64,000 nt of DNA from Hexactinellida sp. DTS-2022 (lineage: Eukaryota > Porifera > Hexactinellida), in NCBI GenBank assembly GCA_028753945.1, contig JAPNXP010000001.1, forward strand, positions 3,214,501 through 3,278,500, read 5' to 3'. Each line of letters opens with the position of its first letter. Within the stretch, counting starts at the first letter, position 1. A model generated the notes under the pieces. That model saw only the letters and a list, made by a program, of their open reading frames with translations, searched no databases and had not been told where the DNA came from. A program made the position numbers and the translations under genes. Below, in pieces: positions 4,792 through 57,077 of this stretch.

Positions 4792-7649
4792 TTAATCTTT
4801 AAACTTTTTGAGTTTGCGAGTGTGCATATTTTTTTGTTGTACTCGTAGAGCGGAATTGACATTGCGTACTTTATTGGCCAAAATAACGTTCGCTGTGATT
4901 GTAGTTATCTTTCGGAGGATAGTCCACCCTTGCACATTGCAAAAACTACATGTATTTCTCGAGTTTATGCTCTGGCTTTCTTCGATTAAAATAATTCTCA
5001 GCTGAATTAGGATTTGTCTAGAGGGCTCTGTTAAAAATCGTCGCATTAAGGTTTCGTCATTTTCGATTGTAATAAAGATCTTTAACACTATAATAATGGC
5101 ATCTATAACAATATGAGATGGTCATTTGAGAGCACCTCGGTCAATAAGTTGAATTAGTTTATAAGTATCTTCCGTACCAACGATTTCGAGTTCTTTATCC
5201 TGTGTAATCAATGACATACAAGTATCACACTTGACAGATTGCTTCAAATATGAGTGTACAGCATATCCACCGACAAAGGCAACTGATTGAAGAAGTGAAC
5301 TATCAAAAGTAATGGTCGAAAAGGATTGCAATGCTATGAGGTATGTATCTAGGTTTAAATCTTAATTGGAAGGTTCGTTAGATAAGGAGGAACAGGAATC
5401 GATCATATCCTTTAAACTGACGTAATCTGATTGTTCCTTTTTCGAGAATATTTTGAGGATGCTTGATAGCTTGATCCGTCGTTCACTTTCAATTATTTGA
5501 GAATAACTAACATGATAATGTGCACCAGACATCATACGATACAAACCAAAATGATGTTCGATTGGGTCATTTTGGAATCGTGATGTGAGCACGTAATCAA
5601 TTCCACAATTTCGAGAGAGATGTTCTACTATTTCAATCAGGGCAAGGCATGAGTGAGAGAAGCTTGTGAAGGTTTGGGGACTCAATTTACCGTGTTTATT
5701 TTCACGAGATCGCCATCGTGCAAGCCAATTAACAAATGAGCCGTAGAAAAATAAAACGATAATCATCACACGTAAGAGGTTTGGAAAAATCATCATTAAG
5801 TCTGATATGCTTATGTATTGTATTGACATTGAAGATTTTCCAAACTTTTATAATAATGTCAAGAAACTCGATTGTTTGGGTTTCGGAATTTGTTCGTGCG
5901 GAGTTATAAATAGATAATGCAGCGAGTGTTGATATGTCGAAAATCTTTAAGCTAGGCTGACATTTTCCCGCTCTAAACTTGTGGGCCAGCAAGCTTTAGC
6001 TGTTAAACGATGACCCTGTTTGATGATTAAACTCTGCTCGTTTTTGTAAAGCATTCGAATATCTTGAAATTTCGCAATACTTATATGTTGGCTATTTTCA
6101 TAGTTTGGATAAGAAAATGTATGTTCATAATCTTTCAAATTGATCCAGTTGTTTCTTACTGATTTTACAATATGAACGAAATCGAAAATTAAGAAGATTT
6201 TTCTTTCTGGATCAATGGGATGAATAGCAATAGGTGTCAGAGTCTTTTTATCAGAGGGAAAAAGTTTGAAAAAGTTCACATTTAGAGGATAGTTATCAGT
6301 ACAGATAACTTGCACCTTTAGACCACAGCGTTCAATGTCACCAATGACAGACTTGACCACTGTATAAATCTCCTTAGCAGAATTAGAAGAGCATGGAAGC
6401 AAGCGGACAATTTCTGACCACTTCTTATAAAGACTTGATGCCATTATGGCGAAAACAGTTTTAATCGGGTGATCAGGTTGCAATGAGTAGCCAAAAATTT
6501 TCCTCCCTCATAATCGACGTTAGATTTTAGATGTATCTCATCCAGTTGAAGAATAAGAATATTTTCCTTTTCGCTAAACTCAGAGGTAGCTTGCATAAGA
6601 AATGCTGATAAATCATTCTCGAGCCCAAAATTTGAACAGAGTTTTTGAAGAGTTTTAGGATGTGGTAGAGAGAGGCATTCGAGTGACTGTATCTGTAACA
6701 AGCTGGAGAGATCAGGTGAGATTTTAAAGCCAATACCTGAGTAAGAACATTATATCTACGCCTAAATTTACTCGGGAGAATATTATCTAATTGGCATTCG
6801 ATGAATTGAAGCTGTGAAAGATAGGAAGCCGTTTCTGGACTATCATCTGAGTTTGAAGAATTAGAAATGAGCCTTTCCTTTGTCAAATTAACGTGCTTAA
6901 TGGCCTGATTAATATGAAAAACAAGCTGGTCCGGGTTTGTAGAATTTTTGTCATTCATGTAAAATCTTCAGTCTGTCGGATAATTTCTTCGATCTGCGTA
7001 TATCAGATAAAACATCCAACGCCAACGGAATACTGAGGTTATCGTGAAACGAAAAGATTCTTAGGTTGCGAGATACCTTCAAACATACTTGAATCTTCAT
7101 TCCCTGAGCTGAGAACTCGGGTTTATATATAAGAAGGGAATCATAGTCAGAATGACAAACCATCCACTTATTTGGTAAAATAAGAACTGGAATTTTCTCA
7201 ATTAGGTCTTGAAAACTGTTCACCATAAATGCATCGTTATCTCTTTCATGTTGCTGCAGGCTTAAGTCAAGAGCTCGTGCAAATTGTTCTGTTTCTTTCG
7301 ACTCGCGTGTAAATCGAGTAGGTCTCCCAACTTGTTCAGCTGAAAGATAGGCCGGACATCCAGGTAAGAGCATAGGAACGGCTGTAGAACGAAGCTTGGG
7401 CCTTTCGCGTAATTTCTCGGTGAACTTTCCGTCTGCTTGCATTATTCTGTCCACGGTGATAATATCTTCAGGCATAAAATGATGGAGACATACGTAAATA
7501 TGCTTTAGATTTTCTATGTTCACTCGATGAAGAGATTTTAACCACTGCTCACGAAGTTCAGGGGGTGTATTTGGAAGTTTGAACACTGGTGTATATGGTT
7601 CACCTCGATAATTACTCCTACACCCAGGTGCAGAACACTGATTAGGCAT
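4792..7649 (-). pseudogene. P-element transposase A (THAP family), frameshifted
   Basis: The family cuts and pastes P-type DNA transposons. The N terminus (MPNQCSAPGC, then VFKLP, LREQWLKSL, VCLHHF, and a late AVP motif) is a C2CH THAP zinc finger, the DNA-binding domain. Further blocks fit the P-element RNase H-like core: LQLDEIHLKS near 6550, CTDNYPLN near 6310, FDFVHIVKSVRNNW near 6160, and NDPIEHHFGLYRMMSG near 5560. These supply the expected acidic residues. The C-terminal VGGYAVHSYL ... CDTC ... LIDRGALK block also fits. The coding sequence is broken into at least seven frames by indels between 6960 and 5330. The start at 7649 aligns with copy B. Dead copy. Confidence 0.88.
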
Positions 7650-7796
7650 CTTTACGTATAGCACAATAAAATAAATAAACTAGAAAACAAAATGTTAAAA
7701 AAAAAAAGATTAACCGATAGACCAATAGACAACAAAATAATATAACCAATCGACAAAAAGTCAACCTTTAGAGTTTAGACAATAGACAACAAAGGT

Positions 7797-14009: not shown

Positions 14010-14813
14010 TCACTCTTTTGAAACTGTTTGCTTAACCTCATCATCTTCAATTTTGGGAGCTAAATAGTACTTCAAATAACCAATTTCTTGGATTTGATAT
14101 TCAACAACAAGGGGATTACCCGCTTTAAATGAGAGAATTACAATTGATGACAATGCTGTAGCTTTAGTAAAGAAATTTAAATACCTGAGAGCAAAGGTCA
14201 GGAGGACAGCTTCATGAAGTTCAATTTTCACATTTTCATCAATATTCTCACCTGTATTGTTAGGTCTTAGACTAATCTTTCCTGTACCAATAGACCCTGA
14301 TGATGAAAATTGTACTCCCTCCTTAGTACAAGCAATTTGCACTGATTCACCAAGAAGAGACAAGTCTCTACATATGCGCTGGAATTCAGTAGCAGGTAAT
14401 GTAACAACACAATCGTACTCCATATCAGGTATTCCCAGGTGTTCGCTATCAATATTCATCAGCTTTAAATCAAACTGTGATACCTTTTCAGAGTTTGAAC
14501 TCTCGAATACAAATGAAACATTATCACTAGTTTCACTTGCACGAATCGTGACTGAATCATCATTTGAAGAGCATTTAAGTATTTTTGAAAGGTTACTTGA
14601 ACTAAGACCGAGTGATATATTACGATCACATCTATAAGGATCGAATCCATCAGATTTGAGGTATAAAGAAACCAAAGCAACATGACTACTATCCATACCT
14701 TGAAGACTAATACCTGATCCAGAACACTCCCAATTAGCATCTTCAACAACATCTTTTATTGATTCTATTATCTTTTTCCAAAGTGTCCCATGTAGTAACC
14801 GTGCTTCAAACAT
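14010..14813 (-). CDS. PCNA: Proliferating cell nuclear antigen (sliding clamp)
   Basis: This protein forms a trimeric ring around DNA and tethers DNA polymerases, ligase and repair proteins in the nucleus. The 267-residue product starts MFEARLLHG, as family members do, and has the DSSHVALVSL strand, the interdomain connector (about 117-135, with LGIPD-type sequence), ICRDLS, and the C-terminal YYLAPKIEDDE that binds PIP-box partners. The lysine corresponding to the ubiquitin/SUMO acceptor is at residue 164 (ACTKEG). Length is close to the usual 258-262, with a short extra tail. There is a single uninterrupted exon. An ATTAAA polyadenylation-like signal lies about 105 bases past the stop on this strand. 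It has no disruptions and looks functional. Confidence 0.96.
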   Translation of the reverse strand: MFEARLLHGTLWKKIIESIKDVVEDANWECSGSGISLQGMDSSHVALVSLYLKSDGFDPYRCDRNISLGLSSSNLSKILKCSSNDDSVTIRASETSDNVSFVFESSNSEKVSQFDLKLMNIDSEHLGIPDMEYDCVVTLPATEFQRICRDLSLLGESVQIACTKEGVQFSSSGSIGTGKISLRPNNTGENIDENVKIELHEAVLLTFALRYLNFFTKATALSSIVILSFKAGNPLVVEYQIQEIGYLKYYLAPKIEDDEVKQTVSKE

Positions 14814-23868: not shown

Positions 23869-25450
23869 TTGAACTCAAAGAATTACGAGTGTCAAGCATA
23901 CCGGTATGTTAAAGTTCGAGAATCTCCAAATTCAATCTTTCTCAAGTGTGCATTATTTCGGACACCTAGCTGTGAGTCCTTTGGCAAAATAGACAAACTG
24001 ACAGATCTGTTTGAAGTAACAAATCTACATAATCACTCTGTCGAATCTCATAATAAAGAGAAAATTATCCTTTGTAACCAAATAAAGCGGAGGGCAGAAA
24101 CGACGACTTGCGAACTTAGAGAAATATTTAATGAATGCTGCCGAGATTCTATTGGTGCATCATCTGTGACTTTTAAGAAATTGGAAAGCAGTATGTTTAA
24201 GAGAAGGAGGAAAATTCAACCGAGCGCACAAGAATTTGGAGTACTGTTACTTGAATCAGGCTATTCTACTAATCATTTGAAAACCGTTATTCAAGAGGAT
24301 GATGTAGCTTTAATCTTTGGCTCAGATAGCATGGTAAACAAGCTCCCAGATTTTGCTTATATTCAGTTTGATGGCACCTTCAAACTCATCCCTCGAATAT
24401 TCTTACAACTCTTCACGATATTTGTTGAATTTAATGGTCACACCCTTCCAGCACTACACATCCTAATGACCATAAAAACTGAGCAATTATACACAGCTGT
24501 ACTCTCTTCAATTCGCGAATTGATACCATGTTTTATTCCAGTGTTCGCGATTGGTGATTTTGAAATCGCTCCAAGAAATGCTTTGAAAGGAATTTACCCC
24601 ACAGTAACGATCATTGGATGCTGGTTTCACTACACCAAAGCGCTTTATGAAAAGGTTCAGAAACTGGGCTTGACATTATTGTACAAGAAAAATCACTCTT
24701 TTCGAAAATGGATCCTTCGATCAATGAATGGCACTACCTTAGTTACCTGGAGAAGAGATATACCCTGTCTACTTATTGTTAGAATTACCAACCACTGATT
24801 TACTTGAGGCTGAAAAGAATCTGGTGAAGGCATTTAGAACATATTTTAACAGGACATGGCTAAGTGGAAATAACAATTTATCAGTGTTTTATTATGAACA
24901 AGCCACAAATAATGGAGTTGAATCGTATCACAAAACACTCAAGTCCTACATGAAGATTACTCATCCTAATATTTGGAGATTTATGGAAAGTTTGAATAAC
25001 ATAATTACAGAATATGATATTGAATTTCAAAGGTTAACCAATCGTCTGGCTACTACAAGAGGAACTAACTACAATACAAGGACGAAATTAATTCGCAGAA
25101 AAGAACTAAGAGAAAATCATATTAATCATACCTGCACTTCTCTACAATATCTTGATGCAATGGCATCGACAATTGGTAAGGAGAACCTTAATCCAGCAGA
25201 ACCGTTAACAGTGCCCATTGATAGTGCTATATCTCACGCCGTACTGGATTCTTTTGAAAGTGAGGATGACCTCACTGATGATCAGTGTCATGTATGTTTA
25301 CAAGCCAGATCAGAAAACTTTGCTCTATTACATGACCATTGTGTACATGCAGGATTTTGCGAATCTTGTGCCAACCATGTATTTGAACTTCAGGCCGACT
25401 GTCCAATTTGCAGGAGCAAAATAAATGGAGTTTTGAAAGTTTTCCAATAA
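23869..25450 (+). pseudogene. MULE transposase with FLYWCH-like finger and C-terminal RING, one frameshift
   Basis: Residues 1-65 resemble a FLYWCH/WRKY-GCM zinc finger (FLKC ... SC ... LHNH). The DDE core follows: FDGTFK (D168), GDFE (D230), then GCWFHY with the C-x2-H pair (251-254). The frame breaks near 24780, one base out, and continues in a second frame to 25450 with TNNGVESYH, which supplies the catalytic glutamate. The C terminus has a RING-type pattern (CHVC ... HDHCVHAGFCESC ... CPICRSKI) that is unusual for a transposase and suggests an E3-ligase-like or structural role. If the single frameshift is a real mutation this copy is dead; otherwise the gene is nearly whole. Confidence 0.85.
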
Positions 25451-26540: not shown

Positions 26541-27541
26541 GCGGGAAGCTGAAATGCGATATAATTATGGGAAAATATGTTATCAAGGCATTGATTTTTC
26601 AGAAGAGTGACAGTGGGAAGTCACGGGAAATAGAGTCAAATTTAAATCAGTTTGAATGTAATGCAAAATATGATCATCGTAACCTTAGCAAACTGAGCGA
26701 TCGATGCTAGGTAGCATCGAATTATTAGACACTTTGCTGAATTCCTAAAGATTAACCTAATCATAGCCTACTATACATAAGGCCTAACATCAAAATGTGG
26801 ATTTTGGACCAGGGATGTGTTAGCCGATATAAACGATAAAATACAGGCAATAGCAAATTTAGAGATGTATATTTTAGTCAGTTAAACCTTTCTAAAAGCT
26901 TTAGAACCATCATATCACTGATAATACGGTTTCCACCCCATAAGCATACTAAAATTGAATACAACTGATTTAATATTAATATATAATTCAACATATATTT
27001 AATAGTTATAGACATAATTTTACAATTACAGGTCACAAATACATGATAAGAGGCAACACGGTACATTCATCACTCATTAGTTTCAAACATCTCGCAACAG
27101 CATCGAACTTCTCATTACTATTTATTATTCTGACGGGAACATCACTAAATCTTTCTGTTACCTAGTGTAAAATGATAAAATATATTTGTGGTTCCAATTA
27201 ACAATACACAAAATCAAATCAACTAAGAATACACACATGAATACGTATGATTTAATGGAATTTTTATAACTTTCGCTTCTCAGTATTCTTGAAAATCACC
27301 ATAGAATTGTAATTTTTAACCTTATTCGCTAAGAAAAATTCCCAGCTACGAATACAAGCTTCTGAAGGACATGGGAACCATTCACACTACAAGATGAACA
27401 CTTCTCTCCCCATAATTTACAACCATCAGCATCTAATAATACATTCATAGATAAGTCAACAAGAATTTTTCTACAATGACCTTTCACAAATATCTCCATT
27501 AGTTCGCTATCATTTTCTATGCAAATAAAGATCTTCCAAAC

Positions 27542-28221
27542 CACGGTTCGTTATTCTAGGTACGGAGGGTAATCTGTGCCGCGCAACTTTTGAGCTACTA
27601 AAAAGTTTGTAGCACATGACTTAAATAATTTCTGAAATTTTAGCCGACGGGAAAAATCGTTTTCTTAACTTATGCCTCTTTGAAATTTTTTTGAATTTTT
27701 TCATATTTTTCTTGACAGTCACCCCATAAGCCTATTTATTGACATTTTGTGTAGATATTCTTGCTATTATGCCCTAAATCCATTTATAATTGACTTGTAT
27801 TAGATTTCTTTATAATATGGAGTGGGTGTGTTAGGTAGTTCTAAACCTTTGGCTGAATAACTATAAGGTGATCACCGGTGCCATTCTCAGAGCCCCCCCT
27901 ACTTCAGAACTAAATTATGAACACTTATGCATCTCCCATTGGGTTACTACTTACTAACCAGTTAGTACATATATCTATGTAATTTTATATATATATAACT
28001 ATTAGAAATGGATACTGCTTAACAGTCCTTAAACTAACTAATTGTCAGGAAGCAATACTAAATATTTCTTCCTATATTTGATAAATATAAAATTATAGAC
28101 AAAATTACAACTATTTCATTTACACGTACATAATAATACTCTAAGTCTAAGTTATGTCTCATCTATAAATTACTTTGGAAGAAACCAAAATGCAAGCTAT
28201 TGTACTTAACAACTGAGCGTA
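27542..28221 (+). repeat. Left 680-bp terminal inverted repeat of the Chapaev-like element
   Basis: It is the reverse complement of 30485-31164 over its full length. Its inner 60 bases are a reversed copy of the end of the transposase coding region (an antisense copy of the last 18 codons and stop). A run AGCCCCCCCT lies near 27890. The gene starts 192 bp beyond it. Confidence 0.95.
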
Positions 28222-28413
28222 CAAAATGTTAATTTACCATGAAATTGAAGACCTAGCTATTTTACCTATGCTTTTTGAGAAATGTAATATACTATGCATT
28301 GTATATATTCAATATATACTGAAACGCTTCTATCTATTATCACATTTCACTTTTTTTGATAACCGTGAGATTATATTCCTAATCTATTTCCAAAATATCA
28401 ATATTTCGATATT

Positions 28414-30543
28414 ATGAGTGAGTACCATTTAAAAGCTACAGGACATATTTGTCGTGTTTGTTGTAAAAAGCAAAAATCTGAAAATCTAAGACCAATCAAT
28501 CAAGACCGCCAACAATGGTTACATAATGTTTACTGTATTGACGTAATAGAGGAACAATCTCAATCATATTACCCAACTCGGATATGCAAAGGATGTGCTT
28601 CATCATTACATCGACATATTGATAACCCCAAGGTGTTCAAACCCCCTAAACTTGGTATTCTAGGAACTGGTGATAACTCTCGTCGTGTAACACGTACTCA
28701 TGACTCTGAAAATTGTTTAGTTTGCGAAATATATCGTGGGTGTCGTGGAGTTAATCGGTTAATAAAAGATTCCTGTGACTCGAAATCCTCCGAAGTAATA
28801 GACCAAATATCTTATTCAGATGATGAATCTTCAAAGTTTACTTACTTCAAGAATCACAGCACTCCTGCAAAGTGTTCAAAATGCTTAAGCACCCAACCAG
28901 TTGCTCATGAGTGCAATAGGCAGCAATCAATTCAGAATGCTGTTGAAATGTTGGAAAGGAAGGGAATTACTAACGAAGTAGTGGCCAATATTCTAAGAAA
29001 ACTTGCGAGTAATACAAAATCACCAGAAGTTGAAGTAGATTCGCTTAAAGTTAGGCTATTGAATGGACGTTACGGTAGCTTACCTGCCAACCCATCAGTA
29101 AGTACCGAAGATACTATTCAGTTGAAGATCGATCTTGCTATATCTGATAATGGTTTGAACAAAATTTGTAAATGGATGAATAATCACGGCCTCATGACAC
29201 CTAATCCTCGTAGCGCCCTGAATGCTCTTAAAATCGAAATTGGAGACCTTTTCACAGAAAATCAAATATTTCTGCAACATCGAGCCAAATTACACGAAGA
29301 AGATGAGAAATACATAGAAAAGGAGACCGAGATTGTTTATTGCAATGATATACCCGAGCTTATTCGAAGGACTGAAGGTAAACGTCTGATCAATACAGAG
29401 TATTACCGTTGGGGTGTAGATCATGGAAAAGGGTTTCTCAAAGTTGTGCTACAACTGACGTATAATTTAGATTATATTGACAGTGTTAAGGGTTGCCTTT
29501 TAGTCGCTGTTACAAATGCTCCTGAAACAAGGGAAAACTTAAGGAAAATTTTTAAGTTATTTCCGACTCTTGATCTAACTGATCCCAAGACAACGCTTAC
29601 ATCTGATCTAAAGGTCATAAGCATGATTTGTGGTTTACGTGGAGGTGCTGCAAAATACCCATGTCCTTACTGTACTTACTCGAGAACAACTGAAGAAACG
29701 GGATTCCCTAGATCAGGCATTCATTTCGAGAAAATGTGGGAAAAACTGCAGTGTGAGTATCAAGGTAATCCAAATCATGCAAAAGAATGCTATGGTGTTG
29801 AAGCACTTCCCCTCTTACATTTTCAAAATCCAGCATTATCATTTCCGATCGCTGCAGTACACGCTCAATTAGGACTAAGAGAAAAACTCATTGATAGGTT
29901 AGCAGGGAAGATTTTGGGCCCTCTGGATTTCAGAAACCTACAACTTGAGTGGATAGAGCCAGTTGCAGGTCCACCTCAACAATATCACGGTGGAAGTTAT
30001 ACAGGAAGTGCTAGTCTAAAACTCCTTGACAATGCAAATCTAATTGACCTCCAAAAATTCCAAGGTATACGACCAATTGTACCAGTTTTACAGTGCGCCT
30101 CCATACTTGTTCATAAAATCTTTGGGAGAGAACTGAAAGAAGGTTGGCAAAGCAGCATTTCTAACTTTAAAGATGCGTACCAAAAAATGCGGGAAACTTT
30201 TAAAGAAATAGCAATTGAGCAAGTAATGAAAGATAATGTAGCTAGTAGGGCTACTATAGACAAAGAAATTGAAAAGGCACTTCAGCATGTTATGGAGATC
30301 ACTAGACCAACACCTAAAATTCACTTTCTGTTGGATCACTTGGAAAAATACCTGATTAAAATTAACGAGTTTCAAGAACATCAAAAACAATTGGGGCTTG
30401 GATATTTTTCAGAACAAGTTCTTGAAAGTTGTCACCATAGTTTCAATAAATCCTTCGGTTTATTCGTTGGTAAACATAGACTTCTACGCTCAGTTGTTAA
30501 GTACAATAGCTTGCATTTTGGTTTCTTCCAAAGTAATTTATAG
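28414..30543 (+). CDS. Chapaev-like transposase with RAG1 N-terminal-type zinc module
   Basis: The protein has 709 residues and is open throughout. Residues 10-170 repeat the cysteine/histidine layout of the RAG1 N-terminal region: C13/C16, a VYCIDV segment, C58-x2-C61 with H66/H68 (ICKGCASSLHRH), then C101-x2-C104 followed by EIYRGCRGVNR, and C154/C157 with H165/C167. The catalytic part has D336 (YRWGVDHGKG), D398 (LTSDLKVI), a zinc knuckle C417-P-Y-C420, and E671 in SEQVLESCHHSF, matching the D-D-E plus C-x2-C arrangement shared by CMC, Transib and RAG1 recombinases. Its role would be cut-and-paste transposition of the enclosing element. Similar proteins with a RAG1-like N terminus were described in molluscan N-RAG-TP elements. 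Placement in Chapaev is inferred from ends, 4-bp duplication and motifs. A start at 28414 puts the first zinc ligand at residue 13. Confidence 0.88.
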   Translation: MSEYHLKATGHICRVCCKKQKSENLRPINQDRQQWLHNVYCIDVIEEQSQSYYPTRICKGCASSLHRHIDNPKVFKPPKLGILGTGDNSRRVTRTHDSENCLVCEIYRGCRGVNRLIKDSCDSKSSEVIDQISYSDDESSKFTYFKNHSTPAKCSKCLSTQPVAHECNRQQSIQNAVEMLERKGITNEVVANILRKLASNTKSPEVEVDSLKVRLLNGRYGSLPANPSVSTEDTIQLKIDLAISDNGLNKICKWMNNHGLMTPNPRSALNALKIEIGDLFTENQIFLQHRAKLHEEDEKYIEKETEIVYCNDIPELIRRTEGKRLINTEYYRWGVDHGKGFLKVVLQLTYNLDYIDSVKGCLLVAVTNAPETRENLRKIFKLFPTLDLTDPKTTLTSDLKVISMICGLRGGAAKYPCPYCTYSRTTEETGFPRSGIHFEKMWEKLQCEYQGNPNHAKECYGVEALPLLHFQNPALSFPIAAVHAQLGLREKLIDRLAGKILGPLDFRNLQLEWIEPVAGPPQQYHGGSYTGSASLKLLDNANLIDLQKFQGIRPIVPVLQCASILVHKIFGRELKEGWQSSISNFKDAYQKMRETFKEIAIEQVMKDNVASRATIDKEIEKALQHVMEITRPTPKIHFLLDHLEKYLIKINEFQEHQKQLGLGYFSEQVLESCHHSFNKSFGLFVGKHRLLRSVVKYNSLHFGFFQSNL

Positions 30544-31164
30544 ATGAGACATAACTTAGACTTAGAGTATTATTATGTACGTGTAAATGAAATAGTTGTA
30601 ATTTTGTCTATAATTTTATATTTATCAAATATAGGAAGAAATATTTAGTATTGCTTCCTGACAATTAGTTAGTTTAAGGACTGTTAAGCAGTATCCATTT
30701 CTAATAGTTATATATATATAAAATTACATAGATATATGTACTAACTGGTTAGTAAGTAGTAACCCAATGGGAGATGCATAAGTGTTCATAATTTAGTTCT
30801 GAAGTAGGGGGGGCTCTGAGAATGGCACCGGTGATCACCTTATAGTTATTCAGCCAAAGGTTTAGAACTACCTAACACACCCACTCCATATTATAAAGAA
30901 ATCTAATACAAGTCAATTATAAATGGATTTAGGGCATAATAGCAAGAATATCTACACAAAATGTCAATAAATAGGCTTATGGGGTGACTGTCAAGAAAAA
31001 TATGAAAAAATTCAAAAAAATTTCAAAGAGGCATAAGTTAAGAAAACGATTTTTCCCGTCGGCTAAAATTTCAGAAATTATTTAAGTCATGTGCTACAAA
31101 CTTTTTAGTAGCTCAAAAGTTGCGCGGCACAGATTACTCTCCGTACCTAGAATAACGAACCGTG
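30485..31164 (-). repeat. Right 680-bp terminal inverted repeat of the Chapaev-like element
   Basis: It starts inside the transposase gene (last 18 codons and the TAG at 30541-30543) and ends at CGAACCGTG. Past 31164 the AAAC duplication and the P transposase sequence resume. Confidence 0.95.
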
Positions 31165-34120
31165 AAACAGTGACAATAGATTCTAGGACTACCTCCGATG
31201 GATATTTCAAACCTCCTCGATCAGACAGTTCTAATAGTTTGAACTTAGATATAGTATCAGATTCATCGACGAGTAAATCTCTTTCAATAGTCAAAGAATT
31301 CGGCATATACGTATGACATGGTTGACTACGTTTCAAGTATTGATGTACTGAATTGCCAGCAATAAAGGCTAATGACTGAAGTACCTGAAATTTACAGTCA
31401 ATGGCTGAGAGGTCTGATATAGCGCTCAAGAAAGGATCAAGGTCAACTTCACTGGTAGAATCTGCGCTATCCGATGGTGAAAATGATTGAATGAACTCTT
31501 ACAAAGAAGTACTAGAATCATTCTGATTGGAAAATAGACGTAGTATATTGGATACTTTAAGACGACGTTCTGATTCTAAAATCTGAAGATAGGAAACATG
31601 ATAATTAGCTCCTGACATCATACGATATAGTCCAAAATGATGTTCCAATGGATCAGTCTGCAAGAAAGATGTCAAGAGGTATGAAAACCCACAGTCCTGA
31701 GTTAGAAAATTTGCTATCTGTGGCAACACGAGGCATGCATGTTTGAAGCTGGTAAACGTCTGCTTGCTTAATTTGCCACCTTTCCCAGACAGTGACTCCC
31801 AAGCTTCTAGCCAATAGACAATCCTAGTCAGTAAGAGAAAACGCTCATCGTTAAATCTTATTGGATTAGACAATGGGTCGTTCAACCTGATATGTTTATA
31901 TGGCATATTGATATTGAAAATTTTCCAGAGAGATAGGAGAATCTCAACGAAATCAGAGGTGCTGCATTTGAATGCAGGAGAACGCTGCTCATCCTGGATA
32001 GCTAGAGCAGCAATTGTAGATTCGTGTACTACTTTTAGGACCAACTTAACATTTTGACGTTCTAAATTGGATGGATAACAAGCCTTAGAAGTCAAACGAG
32101 TTTCAAGTTTAGCAAGGCTATCTCTCTCAGAATTATACAGTATACGGATATCACGGAAAGAAGCATGACAGATTTTCAATGGATAAGCGCATCGGTCAAT
32201 AGAAAAACAGTTCAAATCTGGATAAGAAAAGAGCTTATTATCAGTTTGTTGATTCAACCAATTATTGCGAATAGTTTTCAGAATATGTACGAAGTCAAAT
32301 GTAAGGAAAAGACCTCAGCGAATATCACAAGGGTGTGGTACTCGAGTCTCCAGCTTTTTATTAGGGGAAAACAATTTGAAAAGTTTCACATTAAGGGGAT
32401 AGTTGTCAGTGGAGATGATTTCAACGAACAAGCCACAATCTTCAACATCATGAATACAAGATTTGATAGTGTCGAATAACTTTTCAGCTGGTACAGAAGC
32501 ACATGGGAGTAGACGAACAATACAAGACCATTTCTTATACAGACTCGACACCATGATAGCGAAAACTGTCTTGGTAGGATTATCTGGATCGAGGTTTGAA
32601 GCAAACAATCTCCCTCCTTTATAAGAAATATCAGATTTCACGTGAATTTCATCCAAGTGAATAATGACATGCCTGTGTTCCTGAGAAAAGGAATGTGTGG
32701 ATTCCTTAAGAAACATAAAGAATTCATTTTCAAGTCCAAAGGAGGAATACAATTTTTGTAAGGTATTGGAATGAGGAAGAGAAATGCAAGACATGCTCTG
32801 TAGATAGTGATAAGAAGCAGGAGAAATGAGATGTGTTTTAAGAGCTAAGATCTGCGTCAATACGTTATACCTCCTCTTTTTTGGAACAAGACTATTTCGA
32901 AGCTGACAAAGAACAAACTGGAGCCTTGAAACTTCAGGACAAGGAACCAAGTCATCATCAGATTTACCGTAGTACATATTATCAATAACTTGTTGGACAT
33001 GACTTTCCGCAGATGCGATATGAGATGTGTTATCAAAATTAGTGGAAATATTATCAGAGATTTTGGGTGCAGATGGCGGAATAGAAATTTCAATTAGAAG
33101 CGAATCAATTTGTCGAACATCACATAGCGTTACGATAGAAATTGGAAGATTTACACCATTATGAAAAACTTTGACGGACAAGTCAAAATTTACCGATAAG
33201 TACGTATTAACTCCAATCTTACAACTATCTATACGAGGACGCATAAAAATTAATGTCTATTCTTCGGGATACCACGTAGACCATATACTAGCAATTGAGA
33301 GTAAGGGTAACTTAGCTTGTAAATCATGGAAACTGTGGATCTTGAACTTTTCATTCTCTTCGACATCTGACTCTAGACTTAGTTTGACTGCTTGATAGAG
33401 AAGTTCGTCATCCTTGTCCTCTAGAGATAGACGTGTGCGTTTGGTGGCAGTATGAGATGAATAGTACCGTGGACATCCTGGTAAAATAGTTGGCACAGCT
33501 CCATCTTTCAGCTTAGGACGGTTTCTTGGTATTTCTCGATAACTTCCGTCTCCATTGGGAACTTTGTGTGTTGTTTCGACTTCATCTTCTCTAAAATGTT
33601 TTGAGCACACGTACACGACTTTCAGTTCATCTATATCATCTCTGTGTAGCGCTCGTAACCAATCATGTCTCAGTTCATCCGGCGTCTGTGGCATCTTGAA
33701 CACAGGTATTCTGTCGGTTGGGTAATAATTGCTTTTACAACCTGGTGCAGAACAGTTGTTGGGCATGATAATAGCTAGGTAAACGGAAACAGATTGGAAA
33801 GTATCAGAAAGGTGGATTAATAAAGAGAAATAGTGAAATAACGAGTTATTAGTGGAAATACAAATTTTTAGATAAATGCTTATATATGTACATTAGTGAA
33901 TATATACATTATGGGTTATTAATAATTTCATCTTCAAAATCAACTCTGGTTGCAAATTGACCAATTTTATGGTTGGTTTGGCATATTATAGTCTATTTAG
34001 TATCAGAAATAGCCAATAAATGATATTCCCTTCGAAATCAATTCATATCGGCTAACCCATCCCTGGTCCGAAATCCACATTTTGATGTTAGGCCTTATGT
34101 ATAGTAGGCTATGACCTAAT

Positions 34121-35977: not shown

Positions 35978-37552
35978 GCTGCAGTAAATATAAGTTGGCG
36001 CACGATCTTCCACCTACAAGTATCGCAGTTAACAAATTTACATCTCCAAACATCATCGTCACTAATTTCTCCCATGAAGATCATGTGAGTTGTACAAGAA
36101 TCTCTCTAGATGAACCTTCTACAAGTTTAGTCAAGAGGTTGTCATCACTTTCAATTATAACGAATATTTTCCACAGAATAATTATAACAGAAAGAAGCGG
36201 TTCAGATGAATACTTCAGTCGACCACGATCTGTTAAATGGAGGAGCTTAAACTCCGAAGGAAAGTCAAGATCGAATAGAAACTCTTTATCAAATGTAAAG
36301 GTATCAAGGCAGACATGACAAGGTTGGTGATGGTTCAAGTATTTGTGAACTGCATAACCTGCGATAAAGGCTAAATATTGAAGAATTTGTGTACTACATT
36401 TGATGGATGATAAATTGCCTATATCTTCAAGGAACGGATCTAAGATTATATAGTCATCATGATCAGGATAAATAAAATCTGGGGTAGAAAAGGACTTGAC
36501 GAATGTCTGAATGGATAAGGAAGAGTCCGTTTGCTGAGAAAAAATATTCAAGCAGTGGATAGCTGAGACGACGTTCGGTTTCTAGAATTTGTAGATAAGA
36601 TATATGGTAATTCTTCCCCGACATCAAACGATATAGTCCATAATAATGTTGAAGCGGATCTGTTTGCAAAAAGGAAGATAGAACGTATGAAAACTCACAA
36701 TTTTGAATTAAATGGTTAGTGATTTCGGGTAGTGCAATGCATGCGTGCTTAACACTAGTAAATGATGGTTTACTCAATTTTCCTAGTTTCCCAGGTAACG
36801 CTTCCCAAGCATCTAACCAAAATGATAAACGAGTCAAGTATAAGAATCTTTCATCATTGAGGGCCAAGCGTTCGAGAGGCTATCGTTTAAACGGATAGCC
36901 TTAAACGGTGTATTGATGTTGAATATTTTCAATAATGAAAGAAGGATAAATATGAAGTCAGAAGTATTCTTACGATATTCAGGTAAACTAGATTTGTCCA
37001 GAATTCTTAGAGCAGCTAATGTTAATTCGTTAACGACCTTCATAACCAATTTGACATTTAGTCGTTCTATAGCAGAAGGAAACAAGCTTTCATGATAAGA
37101 TGGGGGGGCTAGTTTAGCTAAACTTTGACTTTGTGAGTTATAATGAAGACGTATATCTTGGAAGCAAGCTGAATGGACTTTAAGAGGATATTGGCAATAA
37201 TCAACTGCAAAATTTTCGAGATTTGGATATTGAAATGTTTTCTCAAAATCTTTCTCATTTAGCCAATTGTTACGAAAACTCTTCAATCCGTTCTATCAGA
37301 CTGGGCAGAATAAATGTGGTAAATTATGAAGGTACCATACTAACCAAATACTAGGTAAGAAACGAGAGTCAACTTATCTTTTAGATTCTGTAGAGTATTG
37401 ATCTTGTATTTACATGTTTCCTCTGTCTCAGTAATCAAACTCATCTGTATGGTTTTATTCAGCAATTCTACCTTTGAGTCATATGACAAGCGAGTCCGCT
37501 TCGTTTTCGATGTTGTTGAATAATAAGAGGGACATTCAGTAAGCAAACACAA
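35978..37552 (-). pseudogene. P-element transposase C, truncated and internally deleted
   Basis: The THAP finger is absent; the first recognisable part (37552-37340) matches the segment after the finger (CPSYYSTTSKTKRTRLS). About 1 kb of the catalytic core is then missing, and coding similarity resumes at 37286 with SFRNNWLNEKDFEK. Next come DPLQHYYGLYRLMSG near 36640, where the usual glutamate is a glutamine, and a LAFIAGYAVHKYL ... CHVC ... LTDRGRLKYSSE tail to about 35978. Frameshifts lie near 36860 and 36480. No P terminus was found on either side. It is most similar to copy B by eye. Confidence 0.85.
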
Positions 37553-53283: not shown

Positions 53284-56200
53284 CATAGCATTCTATACAT
53301 AAGGCAATGGAGGTCACTATTTTTTTTGGACCAGGGATTGGTTAGTATATTCAATTTTTTTTCCTTTATTACGTTATATAGGTTAAGCAATAATATATAT
53401 TATTAATTAAGACGTAATTAATCTTCGTAATTATTTTTATTCCGGAATAGAACAACTATGACACATTGTAAATATATACGTATAGCTCATACAGGTATAA
53501 ACACAAAATATACATTGGAGTTAAAGAACATATCGGGACAGACTTGTACTTCATGGACAGACTTGTACTTCATGGACAGACTTGTACTCATGTGGCGGAG
53601 TTGTACTGATGTGGCGGTCACTGGCGGAGTTGTGCTAATGAGACGGACTTTTACTTCGAAACATATTAAGAGTGATGTAGGCAAGCTTTGAACTAAAAGA
53701 AATAAAAACAGTATTAGTTTTTGAATTTTTTAAGTTTAGAATTGTCGTGACCTAGAACCATCGCATTATATGTCTTGACTTTATTGGAAAGTAAACAATA
53801 AGAAAGAGTCACAAATAATTTCTGCAATATATCCCAACGTGACATGCTACAATCACACCAAACCCTCCACATATTACCATACTTTGTTTCTGTCCTTATA
53901 CAAGCTAACTGAACAAGTTTTGTACCAGACGAACCAGTATAAAAGTCTCAAACAGCTGTTTTCGACAGTCGATTTTACTAAATATGTCATATATAATTTT
54001 TGCAATATCGATTACACAAGTCGATGGGTATTTCAGAGAACCTCTATCCAACAATTCTATTAGTCTAAACTGATTACCAATGTCATCGTTAACCTGTATG
54101 GATTTTTCAGTCGTAAGAAAGTCTCTACACATTGGACAGCCATTTGTTTTATTTAGGTATGAAAAAACTGCATAACCTGCCACAAATGCGAGGCACTCAA
54201 CTTGAGAAATAGATATTTCTGGAAGGGTGAACTGTTCTAAATTTGTGATAAGTTTTTCTAATTCAAAATTTGAGTCCTCGCCACTCAGTAACACTAGAAA
54301 AGGTACTCAAATATTCCATGAGTGTAGGTTTATGAATGGTATCAGATTTAGTTTTGATGTCAAATAGTTTTAGTATGTTAGAGAGTTGTAATCTGCGTTC
54401 GGATTCTAGGATTTGGCTATAGGAGATTTGATAGTGGGAACCTGACATTTGTCTATACAAACCAAAATGATGTTCTAAAGGATCGTTTTGTATCCTTGAT
54501 GTCAACAGGTACTGGAAACCATATTGGTACAAAGCATATCAACAAGCAAGGGCAGTGCGTTGCAAGTGTGTTTCAGACTTGTGAAGGTTTGAGGTGACAG
54601 TTTTCTTTTAACAGTGGGAAGGTTTTTCCAACAGTCTAACAAGTTAACTACATTTCGTAGGAACAAGATTCGAGAGTCGTCTGGAGATAGAGGTCAAGAA
54701 AAGTCGTCAATAAAACGTATACCTTTCCCGACCCAATTAGATTAAACATTTTCCAGATGTCATTAATTAACTCAGAAAATCAACAGTTTGGTTTTGACTT
54801 ATACTTTTCCTTTCAAAATTGAGAGCTAATAGGCCAGCTGAAGTTGACTCGTGAAAAATCTTAAGTGCCAAATTTACATTCTGTCTTTCCAAGCTAGATG
54901 GCCAACAAGCTTTGGAAGTTAATTTTGGAGCTCGTTTAAAAATGTTACATGTATCAGATTTGTATAAGGTCATAATGTCATCAAAAACTGAATAGCATAT
55001 TGTAGGATACAAAGATTTAGCAAAATTAGTTGTGTAAATTTTGAGGCCTGAAGTATTAACTCTCAAATGATCCTGAGATTCATCTTCAGCAGATGTATGG
55101 TTAAGAGTGATGCAATCATTAAATTTAGGAAAAATAAATACTTTCTCGTAGTCTTTCAAATTTAACCAATTATTTCGGATTGATTTTTAAATATGGGCTA
55201 TATCAAAAAATAAAATAAGGTCTCTATTTGGGTCACAAGGATGTATAACTTTAGGTAGCAGTGTTTTGTGATTTATGGAAAGAAGTTTATATAAACTGAC
55301 ATTTAGGGGGTAATTGTCGGTACAGACAGCATCTACATATAAATTACAACTTTCAATGTCCGAAATTGTCTTAATAACAATGGGTAATAGTGCAGCAGCA
55401 GAGCTATAACCAAGAGGGACTAGCCTTACAATGGTAGAGAACTTAGTCATCAAACTAGATACCATTATAGAAAATACAGTGGTGGGTGGGTCTTCCAGAT
55501 GGTCAATAGAGCCAATAATTCTACCACCTTTATAACTAGCATGGCTACGTAAATGAACTTCGTCCATCTGAAGTATAACATGCCTCTCTAAATCTTTGAA
55601 TGTAGATGAAAATTCCTTAAGTACACTTAAATATTCACTCTCTAGACCAATTGAATTTTTAATTTTGAGTAGATTACGTTCATGAGGGAGATTCAAACAA
55701 TTTTAGGATTGGATTAGCCGAAAACAAGCGGGAGAAATGCCGTGTACCTTGAGGGAAAAAACCTGCGTTGTCACGCTATAACGGCGCCCATATTTTGAAA
55801 TTACTAAATATCTCAATTGATCAAGTAGAAACATAATCCCAATTTTTGGTAATATAGGTAAGTTCTCGATTTGGGGTTTCTGAAATTCTATATCTTGATC
55901 ACTCTGCTCTATTAGTTCAATGGCACTTTGCAACTCAATAATAGCATTTCAACATGCGCTTTAACGGAGGGTTGACGTTGGTTGGGTTTGCATTTAGGAC
56001 TATTAACTGGGAATGTTCAATTTCTACTAACAATGTCTCAATCTGGCGGATGTCATTAATTTTGTTGAGAGATAAATATATTTGGCGCTTGTGTTGATCA
56101 AAACCATTAATCAATAAACATTGGTCTATTACAAGTGAACATTGAATCGAAGGTTGGTTATCTAAAGTGGTGATTTTTAGAAAAAACAAGGTGTCAGTGT

Positions 56201-57077
56201 CGGGTTTGTGGACGACCCAACTATTAGAAAGATCGATGCAACTCAGCTTATCAACAACATCACTAAGAATACTGATTGAGAACTTATCTATGGTAGATGT
56301 ATTGTCCACTATGCTCAGATTGATTGCAGTTTGAACCATTATCAGCTCTCGATCGTCTCTCGAAATTCTTTTTGTCTTCTCTGTAGTGTTTGTCAGGTAG
56401 CTGGGGCAGTTCGGGAATATAGTTAGTACAGCACTCTTCGTTAGGGACAATCGGTCTCGTGGTGCCACAACCATCTTCTGTCCATCAAAATATTCGAATG
56501 TCCTTTCGATGAATTCCTCTTTGAAGTGGAGTATACAAACCTAAGAAATGATTAAATAATTTTGAATGTGAGTTTAAAATAAGTGTATAAGAGTATTTAC
56601 CTTTATATTTATATTGTTCTGGTAATCTTCTACAGGTCTTGGAATGGCTCTAAACCATTTTTCACGAAGTTGTTCATCCTTGGGAAAACTAAATACTTTT
56701 GGGAAAACTAAATACTTTTGTGAAATGTTCTTCTCCCCGATAATTCGAGGTACATCCGGGTACGATACAACTCATCGCGTTGATATTGAAGTTAGAATAA
56801 GTGATTGTATAGTAGATAATAATAATTTCAATATCGCTTATTTATGTTGAAAAGTTAATTTAATCATTATGGGTTATTAAAAAATAAATATCATAAACAC
56901 CTAATTTGTAAATGTTTTATATGTTACAGGTTAGTTTTGCATCTCCTAGACTATTTTTATATCAGAACAGCTAATGGATGTTATATAAACGTAATGAAGG
57001 AAAAAATTTGAATATACTAATCAATCCATGGTCCAAAAAAAAAGTGACTGCCATTGCCTTATGTATAGAATGCTATG
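53284..57077 (-). mobile_element. P element D with both termini
   Basis: The terminal inverted repeats start CATAGCATTCTATACATAAG and continue through GGCAATGG to GGACCA. ATTTATG flanks both sides (53277-53283, 57078-57084), a 7-bp target duplication. It is 3794 bp and carries a degenerate transposase gene on the minus strand. A minisatellite-like GGACAGACTTGTACTTCAT pair lies near 53540-53590. Confidence 0.93.
53905..56775 (-). pseudogene. P-element transposase D with an intron in the THAP region
   Basis: Exon 1 starts at the ATG at 56775 (MSCIVPGCTSNYRGEEHF, then VFSFPK, LREKWFRAIP). A 19-bp tandem duplication (56682-56719) breaks its frame. A 60-bp GT-AG intron (56600-56541) follows. Exon 2 resumes in phase at 56540 with VCILHFKEEF, completing the C2CH THAP finger. 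Later blocks are MDEVHLRS, CTDNYPLNVS, IRNNWLN and NDPLEHHFGLYRQMSG, plus the LAFVAGYAVFSYL ... CPMC ... LLDRGSLKYPS C terminus. Frameshifts lie near 55935, 54770-54530 and 54290, with stops near 55700 and 55185. Dead copy. Confidence 0.9.

Follow-up and report, generated by a model that had tools for sequence, protein, structure and literature searches.

CACTA/EnSpm transposons end in CACTA and leave a 3-bp target site duplication (TSD). Chapaev elements, of the CMC superfamily, are described in passages of PMC4079192 as having CAC/GTG ends, duplications of 3 to 4 bp and a D-D-E transposase with C(2)C, LH and H(4)H motifs, and the same passages give Chapaev3 (Merrow, Garfield, Conan), which shares the superfamily motifs and the CAC/GTG ends, a 3-bp TWA duplication instead. 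Sections of three further sources state that Transib leaves a 5-bp duplication (PMC8355894), that CACTA, Mirage, Transib, and RAG1 belong to a wider group sharing C(2)C and H(3-4)H (PMC12730594), and that an N-terminal zinc finger called Chapa, shared with RAG1, was described by Kapitonov and Koonin (PMC4411706). Long arms are a feature of Galileo, a member of the P superfamily: parts of PMC4168063 report that in Drosophila willistoni the end of its transposase gene (69 bp) lies inside the arm and that transposable elements inserted in one arm end up in both, and conversion between the long arms has been proposed (in parts of PMC3573991), with exchange also put forward as a cause. The present analysis concerns 64,000 nt of a glass sponge genome (Hexactinellida sp. 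DTS-2022, assembly GCA_028753945.1, contig JAPNXP010000001.1, positions 3,214,501 to 3,278,500 of the forward strand; hereafter the window), in which an autonomous-looking element of the Chapaev group sits inside a P-element transposase gene. The element and its parts are the following.

27542..31164, plus strand: complete Chapaev-type DNA transposon, 3,623 bp
27538..27541: left copy of the TSD, AAAC
31165..31168: right copy of the TSD, AAAC, present as a single AAAC in seven of seven aligned P paralogues
27542..28221, plus strand: left terminal inverted repeat, 680 bp
30485..31164, minus strand: right terminal inverted repeat, 680 bp, with one mismatch against the left arm
28414..30543, plus strand: transposase gene, 709 amino acids in a single open frame, with D336, D398, C417-x2-C420, H483, H637-x4-H642, and E667/E671

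The element begins with CACGGTTCG at 27542 and finishes with CGAACCGTG at 31164, giving CAC...GTG ends, and AAAC stands on both sides. Aligned with one another, its arms are identical at 681 of 683 nt; because the left arm differs from the right at position 681 in all three young copies of the family (the other two are described below), the inverted repeat was taken to be 680 bp long, position 27 being its only mismatch. Arm positions 20-70 are the stretch that is retained in distant copies. The sole long frame within the element, 28414-30543, is uninterrupted and reaches into the right arm, whose inner 59 nt are the last 19 codons of the transposase gene (the first of them in part) plus the stop, and the left arm contains the same 59 nt in antisense. 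An earlier note on this DNA, drawn from the sequence alone, had claimed ends with a perfect AAAC duplication, nearly identical long ends, and an open gene of 709 codons, all of which were borne out.

The surrounding P element was resolved into its own ends and the remains of its gene.

26762..34113, minus strand: host P element including the insert, with 72-bp inverted repeats at 26762-26833 and 34042-34113
26755..26761: left 7-bp duplication of the host P element, ACCTAAT
34114..34120: right 7-bp duplication of the host P element, ACCTAAT
33257..33766, minus strand: THAP part of the host P transposase (PF05485, E 6.4e-16), with a private stop at its end
32315..33244, minus strand: RNase H part (PF21787, E 5e-14), with a private stop at its end
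31499..32257, minus strand: GTP-binding insertion part (PF21788, E 0.0031, under the gathering score), with a private stop at its end
31169..31498, minus strand: host P transposase from the last private stop to the insertion
27329..27541, minus strand: C-terminal part of the host P transposase past the insertion, ending in a stop common to five of seven aligned copies

Both a THAP domain and a P-type RNase H domain were found by Pfam in the host gene, and its 7-bp duplication fits the length expected of a P element, duplications of 7 and 8 bp being known in the P superfamily according to sections of PMC4168063. Among the other P copies that were aligned, one on C14 is flanked on both sides by the 7-bp duplication GCTGCAC, a third copy (L027) has flanks matching at 6 of 7 positions, and the remaining five have an end that is missing, changed, or cut otherwise. 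The P-element family occupies many places in the genome; its members have inverted repeats of 72 bp, duplications of 7 bp, and about 3-4% divergence between copies.

When the flanks of the insert are joined with one AAAC, the P-transposase frame runs unbroken across the site (...SEVVLESIVTV-WKIFICIENDSEL...), and seven P copies aligned over their full length have AAAC once at this place. In a search of the genome (112.4 Mb, 18 contigs), 26 left-flank matches reached the junction (those compared out of 54 rows, the window's own being excluded), 23 of them with a right-flank match next to it; the left and right matches overlap by exactly 4 bp in 22 of the 23 paralogous P copies concerned. On the right, 24 of 60 rows were compared; the row of the window itself was set aside, as were six from a more distant P family (75-78% identity) that also start at the junction and have no left-flank row. 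The best 40 candidates were scored in each of the flank searches, for the window and for the C15 and second C1 copies introduced below, so the counts are lower bounds. With 22 of 23 paralogues overlapping by exactly 4 bp, the duplication lies far beyond chance, and a coincidental origin was ruled out on this ground; a single AAAC and 4-bp overlaps in the paralogues are what a 4-bp staggered insertion predicts. The earlier note had offered codon-level proof of an insertion into the P transposase gene: the insertion stands, as does the continuity of the frame across the site, while the intact host frame that it implied does not. The host frame is interrupted on the minus strand by stops whose first bases are 33259, 32317, and 31501, each replaced by a sense codon in all seven aligned copies; these three private stops rule out an intact host gene, which has been disrupted by point changes and not by the insert alone.

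Two further full copies of the family, at about 99-100% identity, were found on C15 and elsewhere on C1 (the second C1 copy), with the duplications AGTC and TATT, respectively, on both sides and with CAC...GTG at both ends, as in the window copy. Besides fragments, the genome holds broken copies of greater age on C2, C3, and C14 and, in three places, on C11; all of the broken copies except the one on C2 have one or both ends unreadable, and the C2 copy has TCTT on both sides, so that a 4-bp duplication is present in all four copies in which both ends can be read (AAAC, AGTC, TATT, TCTT). The C15 and second C1 copies are likewise inserted in repeats. At the C15 site, three of four paralogues whose left match extends to the junction overlap their right match by 4 bp, and at the second C1 site one of two does so (tables read by eye in both cases), which provides paralogous empty sites for all three young insertions. 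A scan for the 13-bp end pattern with one mismatch gave 77 matches against 75 in the reversed control, no excess, but the pattern was hit exactly 10 times, each time at an end of this family. Among the matches to the start of the element there are also isolated fragments of ends, on C15 and C2. Copies without a 4-bp duplication and an empty site that disagrees with the junction, both of which the earlier note had named as telling against it, were looked for together with the further copies that it had proposed to seek: no readable copy lacks the duplication, and one of the 23 paralogous sites lacks an overlap of exactly 4 bp.

We consider it very probable that the locus represents an autonomous-looking element of the Chapaev group (CMC superfamily) that entered, by a 4-bp staggered insertion at AAAC, a P transposase gene that is itself broken and whose arms have been homogenised. 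The target AAAC, in the C-terminal part of the P gene, would have been cut with a stagger of 4 bp, the encoded protein presumably binding the 680-bp ends and cutting and joining the DNA, and arm-to-arm gene conversion or template switching may maintain the likeness of the arms within a copy. Several observations weigh against this account. At the window site, one of the 23 P paralogues lacks an overlap of exactly 4 bp and three of the 26 left-flank matches lack an adjoining right-flank row, one of which, on C6 (L030), runs unbroken across the joined site in another search. The right match starts only 15 bases in for one of the four paralogues at the C15 site, and one of the two at the second C1 site has no right match among the 40 matches listed. 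The gene of the second C1 copy is broken, being open for 485 codons, and the arms of the old C2 copy have no shared change in 117 comparable columns.

A database of 5.8 billion proteins yielded five relatives of the encoded protein: three with 39-47% identity, a fragment with 85%, and a distant one with 21%. In an alignment of seven proteins, D336, D398, C417, C420, H483, H637, H642, E667, E671, and H674 are invariant, and the D-D-E, C(2)C, and H(4)H motifs are present in the window transposase; the LH motif reads VH in the window protein and two relatives and LH in the other four of the seven. Cysteine pairs are present toward the N-terminus. The zinc region gave a weak match to RAG1 (chain 21wb_A, E 0.97) and the N-terminal region one to chain 7po9_A (LD30467p, E 0.44), which we take to be a ZAD domain; the sequence search of solved structures returned nothing significant, including no significant overall similarity to RAG1/Transib. 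A search for relatives in viral contigs gave 89 stretches that fit the search pattern, none of which was confirmed.

These features support the Chapaev-like identity suggested in the earlier note, with CAC/GTG termini, 4-bp duplications in four of four copies within the 3 to 4 bp described for Chapaev, and a D-D-E transposase with C(2)C, (L)H, and H(4)H; the N-terminal cysteine pairs would be a further resemblance. The element represents a new family within an established superfamily, lying inside an element of an equally familiar type, and its class is judged from motifs, ends, and TSD against published descriptions of Chapaev, a basis that counts as a further point against the assignment. 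Unlike the Chapaev group as described, it has 680-bp arms that extend over the final part of the gene and undergo concerted evolution. There is only a slight chance that the likeness to Chapaev is superficial and the element a member of another branch of the wider group (CACTA/EnSpm, Mirage, Transib, or Chapaev3). Such an origin would accord with a Pfam search that returned only DUF1280 below the cut-off and a weaker mTERF row, with the sharing of C(2)C and H(3-4)H across the whole group (as stated in parts of PMC12730594), and with a class that is drawn from descriptions. Against it, the 4-bp duplication is neither the 3-bp TWA of Chapaev3 (passages of PMC4079192) nor the 5 bp of Transib (a section of PMC8355894), the ends are CACGG and not the CACTA of CACTA/EnSpm, from which the duplication length also departs, and the N-terminal cysteine pairs fit the Chapa kind, though the likeness to RAG1 is only that of the weak match given above.

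Distant relatives with open frames also occur in the same genome, and three of these were read. The first (L066 1-2801; C8:1420900-1423700) has a Chapaev-like open frame of 676 amino acids, and 76 nt of its coding sequence (606-681) are repeated in inverted orientation past the gene (2631-2706), 99% complementary. The other two (L067 and L068) have open frames of 722 and 728 amino acids. Around L067, L068, and the other distant open-frame loci, no long inverted repeats were recognisable within the fetched stretch; loci of the L067/L068 type could be short-armed transposons or genes adopted by the host.

The two arms of a copy share changes that other copies lack. The young copies have 10 variable arm sites, of which 4 (144, 305, 429, and 435) are in the same state in both arms and 6 vary in one arm only. 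The old C14 copy has 15 changes common to both arms and none in a single arm in 426 columns, and the C3 copy has 12 shared and 17 single in 534 columns. As a control, arms of different copies were paired (six comparisons), with 1 shared change each. In the C14 copy (L009, C14:2864337-2871214), moreover, a piece of a dispersed repeat occupies the mirrored place in both arms, with 407 bp in the left and 702 bp in the right. The repeat is unrelated to the element, and 38 other copies of it, 83-92% alike, are listed among the best 40 of 161 candidates. From the outer arm through the 407-bp piece the C14 arms have 1 mismatch in 844 bp, against 11 in the next 233 bp (Fisher p 4e-7). The simplest reading would be that the repeat inserted once, into the right arm, and that part of it was afterwards transferred to the left, and a misassembly is a possible source of the mirrored repeat.

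That the arms are alike through the youth of the insertion alone, with no conversion, is very improbable. Such an explanation would suit the window copy, which has one arm mismatch and few private changes, and the C2 copy with its lack of shared changes, and it is opposed by the lineage-private changes that both arms carry (young copies, 4 of 10 sites; C14, 15 of 15; C3, 12 of 29; cross-copy controls, 1 each) and by the foreign piece of C14, where 1 mismatch in 844 bp gives way to 11 in the next 233 bp. Arms kept alike within each copy by arm-to-arm gene conversion or template switching explain these patterns better; the shared changes are observed, and the repair route is the conjectural part. 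The parallel is Galileo, in which the arms are also long, the gene end is also drawn into the arm, and insertions of one arm also become part of both, with the difference that its transposase is of the P superfamily and not of the CMC superfamily and that its TSD is 7 bp, at times 8. We lean toward the view that the dynamics of Galileo have arisen independently in this Chapaev family, with arms that reach the gene, that are rewritten by conversion even in old, broken copies, in which foreign insertions turn palindromic, and whose identity would be useless as a clock. No report of arm conversion, or of concerted long arms reaching into the gene, was found for Chapaev in the literature listings searched.

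The earlier note had suggested, in view of the open gene and the nearly identical ends, that the insertion may be recent or even active. The argument from the ends falls, because arms that evolve in concert make their likeness no proof of youth, and arm identity was rejected as such a proof given the shared private changes and the mirrored repeat of C14. Recency itself is upheld by the few private substitutions: the insert has 2 in 3,623 bp against the other two young copies, and the host P copy has 29 in 3,529 columns when compared with seven others of its kind. Read literally, these figures would make the insertion about fifteen times younger than the host P copy, although two is a small count, the number of copies is not the same in both sets, and inter-copy conversion could hide changes. 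On this estimate, the private stops of the host are likely older than the insertion.

Among the copies found, the gene is fully open only in those of the window and C15, and their proteins differ solely at amino acids 115, 379, and 654. Since two of the three young copies have an open gene, the family was probably mobile until very recently and may be so now; judged from its sequence, present activity of the window element is possible. It is also conceivable, at somewhat less than even chances, that the window copy is a recent relic of a family that was lately mobile and itself no longer moves, which would be compatible with the Chapaev-group insertion preferred above. Consistent with a relic, there are only three young full copies, one with a broken gene, and the 18 matches to the first 219 bp included no recognisable short non-autonomous derivative, whereas two copies with open 709-codon genes, three amino acid differences, and intact ends speak for continued competence.

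Elsewhere in the window, the frames at 5362-7664, 36081-37286, and 53905-56474 resemble P transposases by eye. Two overlapping plus-strand open frames lie at 23869-25450, the second ending in a RING finger (PF13920), and the remainder resembles a MULE-type transposase. A minus-strand open frame at 14010-14813 looks like PCNA, and we assume it to be an ordinary host gene among transposons.

The insertion is firmly established and yet ordinary in kind, and what is less ordinary is that the arms copy each other. As an example of a Chapaev element that has moved recently, the locus is clean and can be checked: the gene is open, both ends and exact duplications are present, and there are empty sites for all three young insertions. 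It also carries a warning, in that the likeness of long inverted repeats, often taken as a sign of youth, may be upkeep by conversion; the concerted evolution of the arms removes one argument for the youth of this insertion, and the other evidence keeps the conclusion that it is recent.
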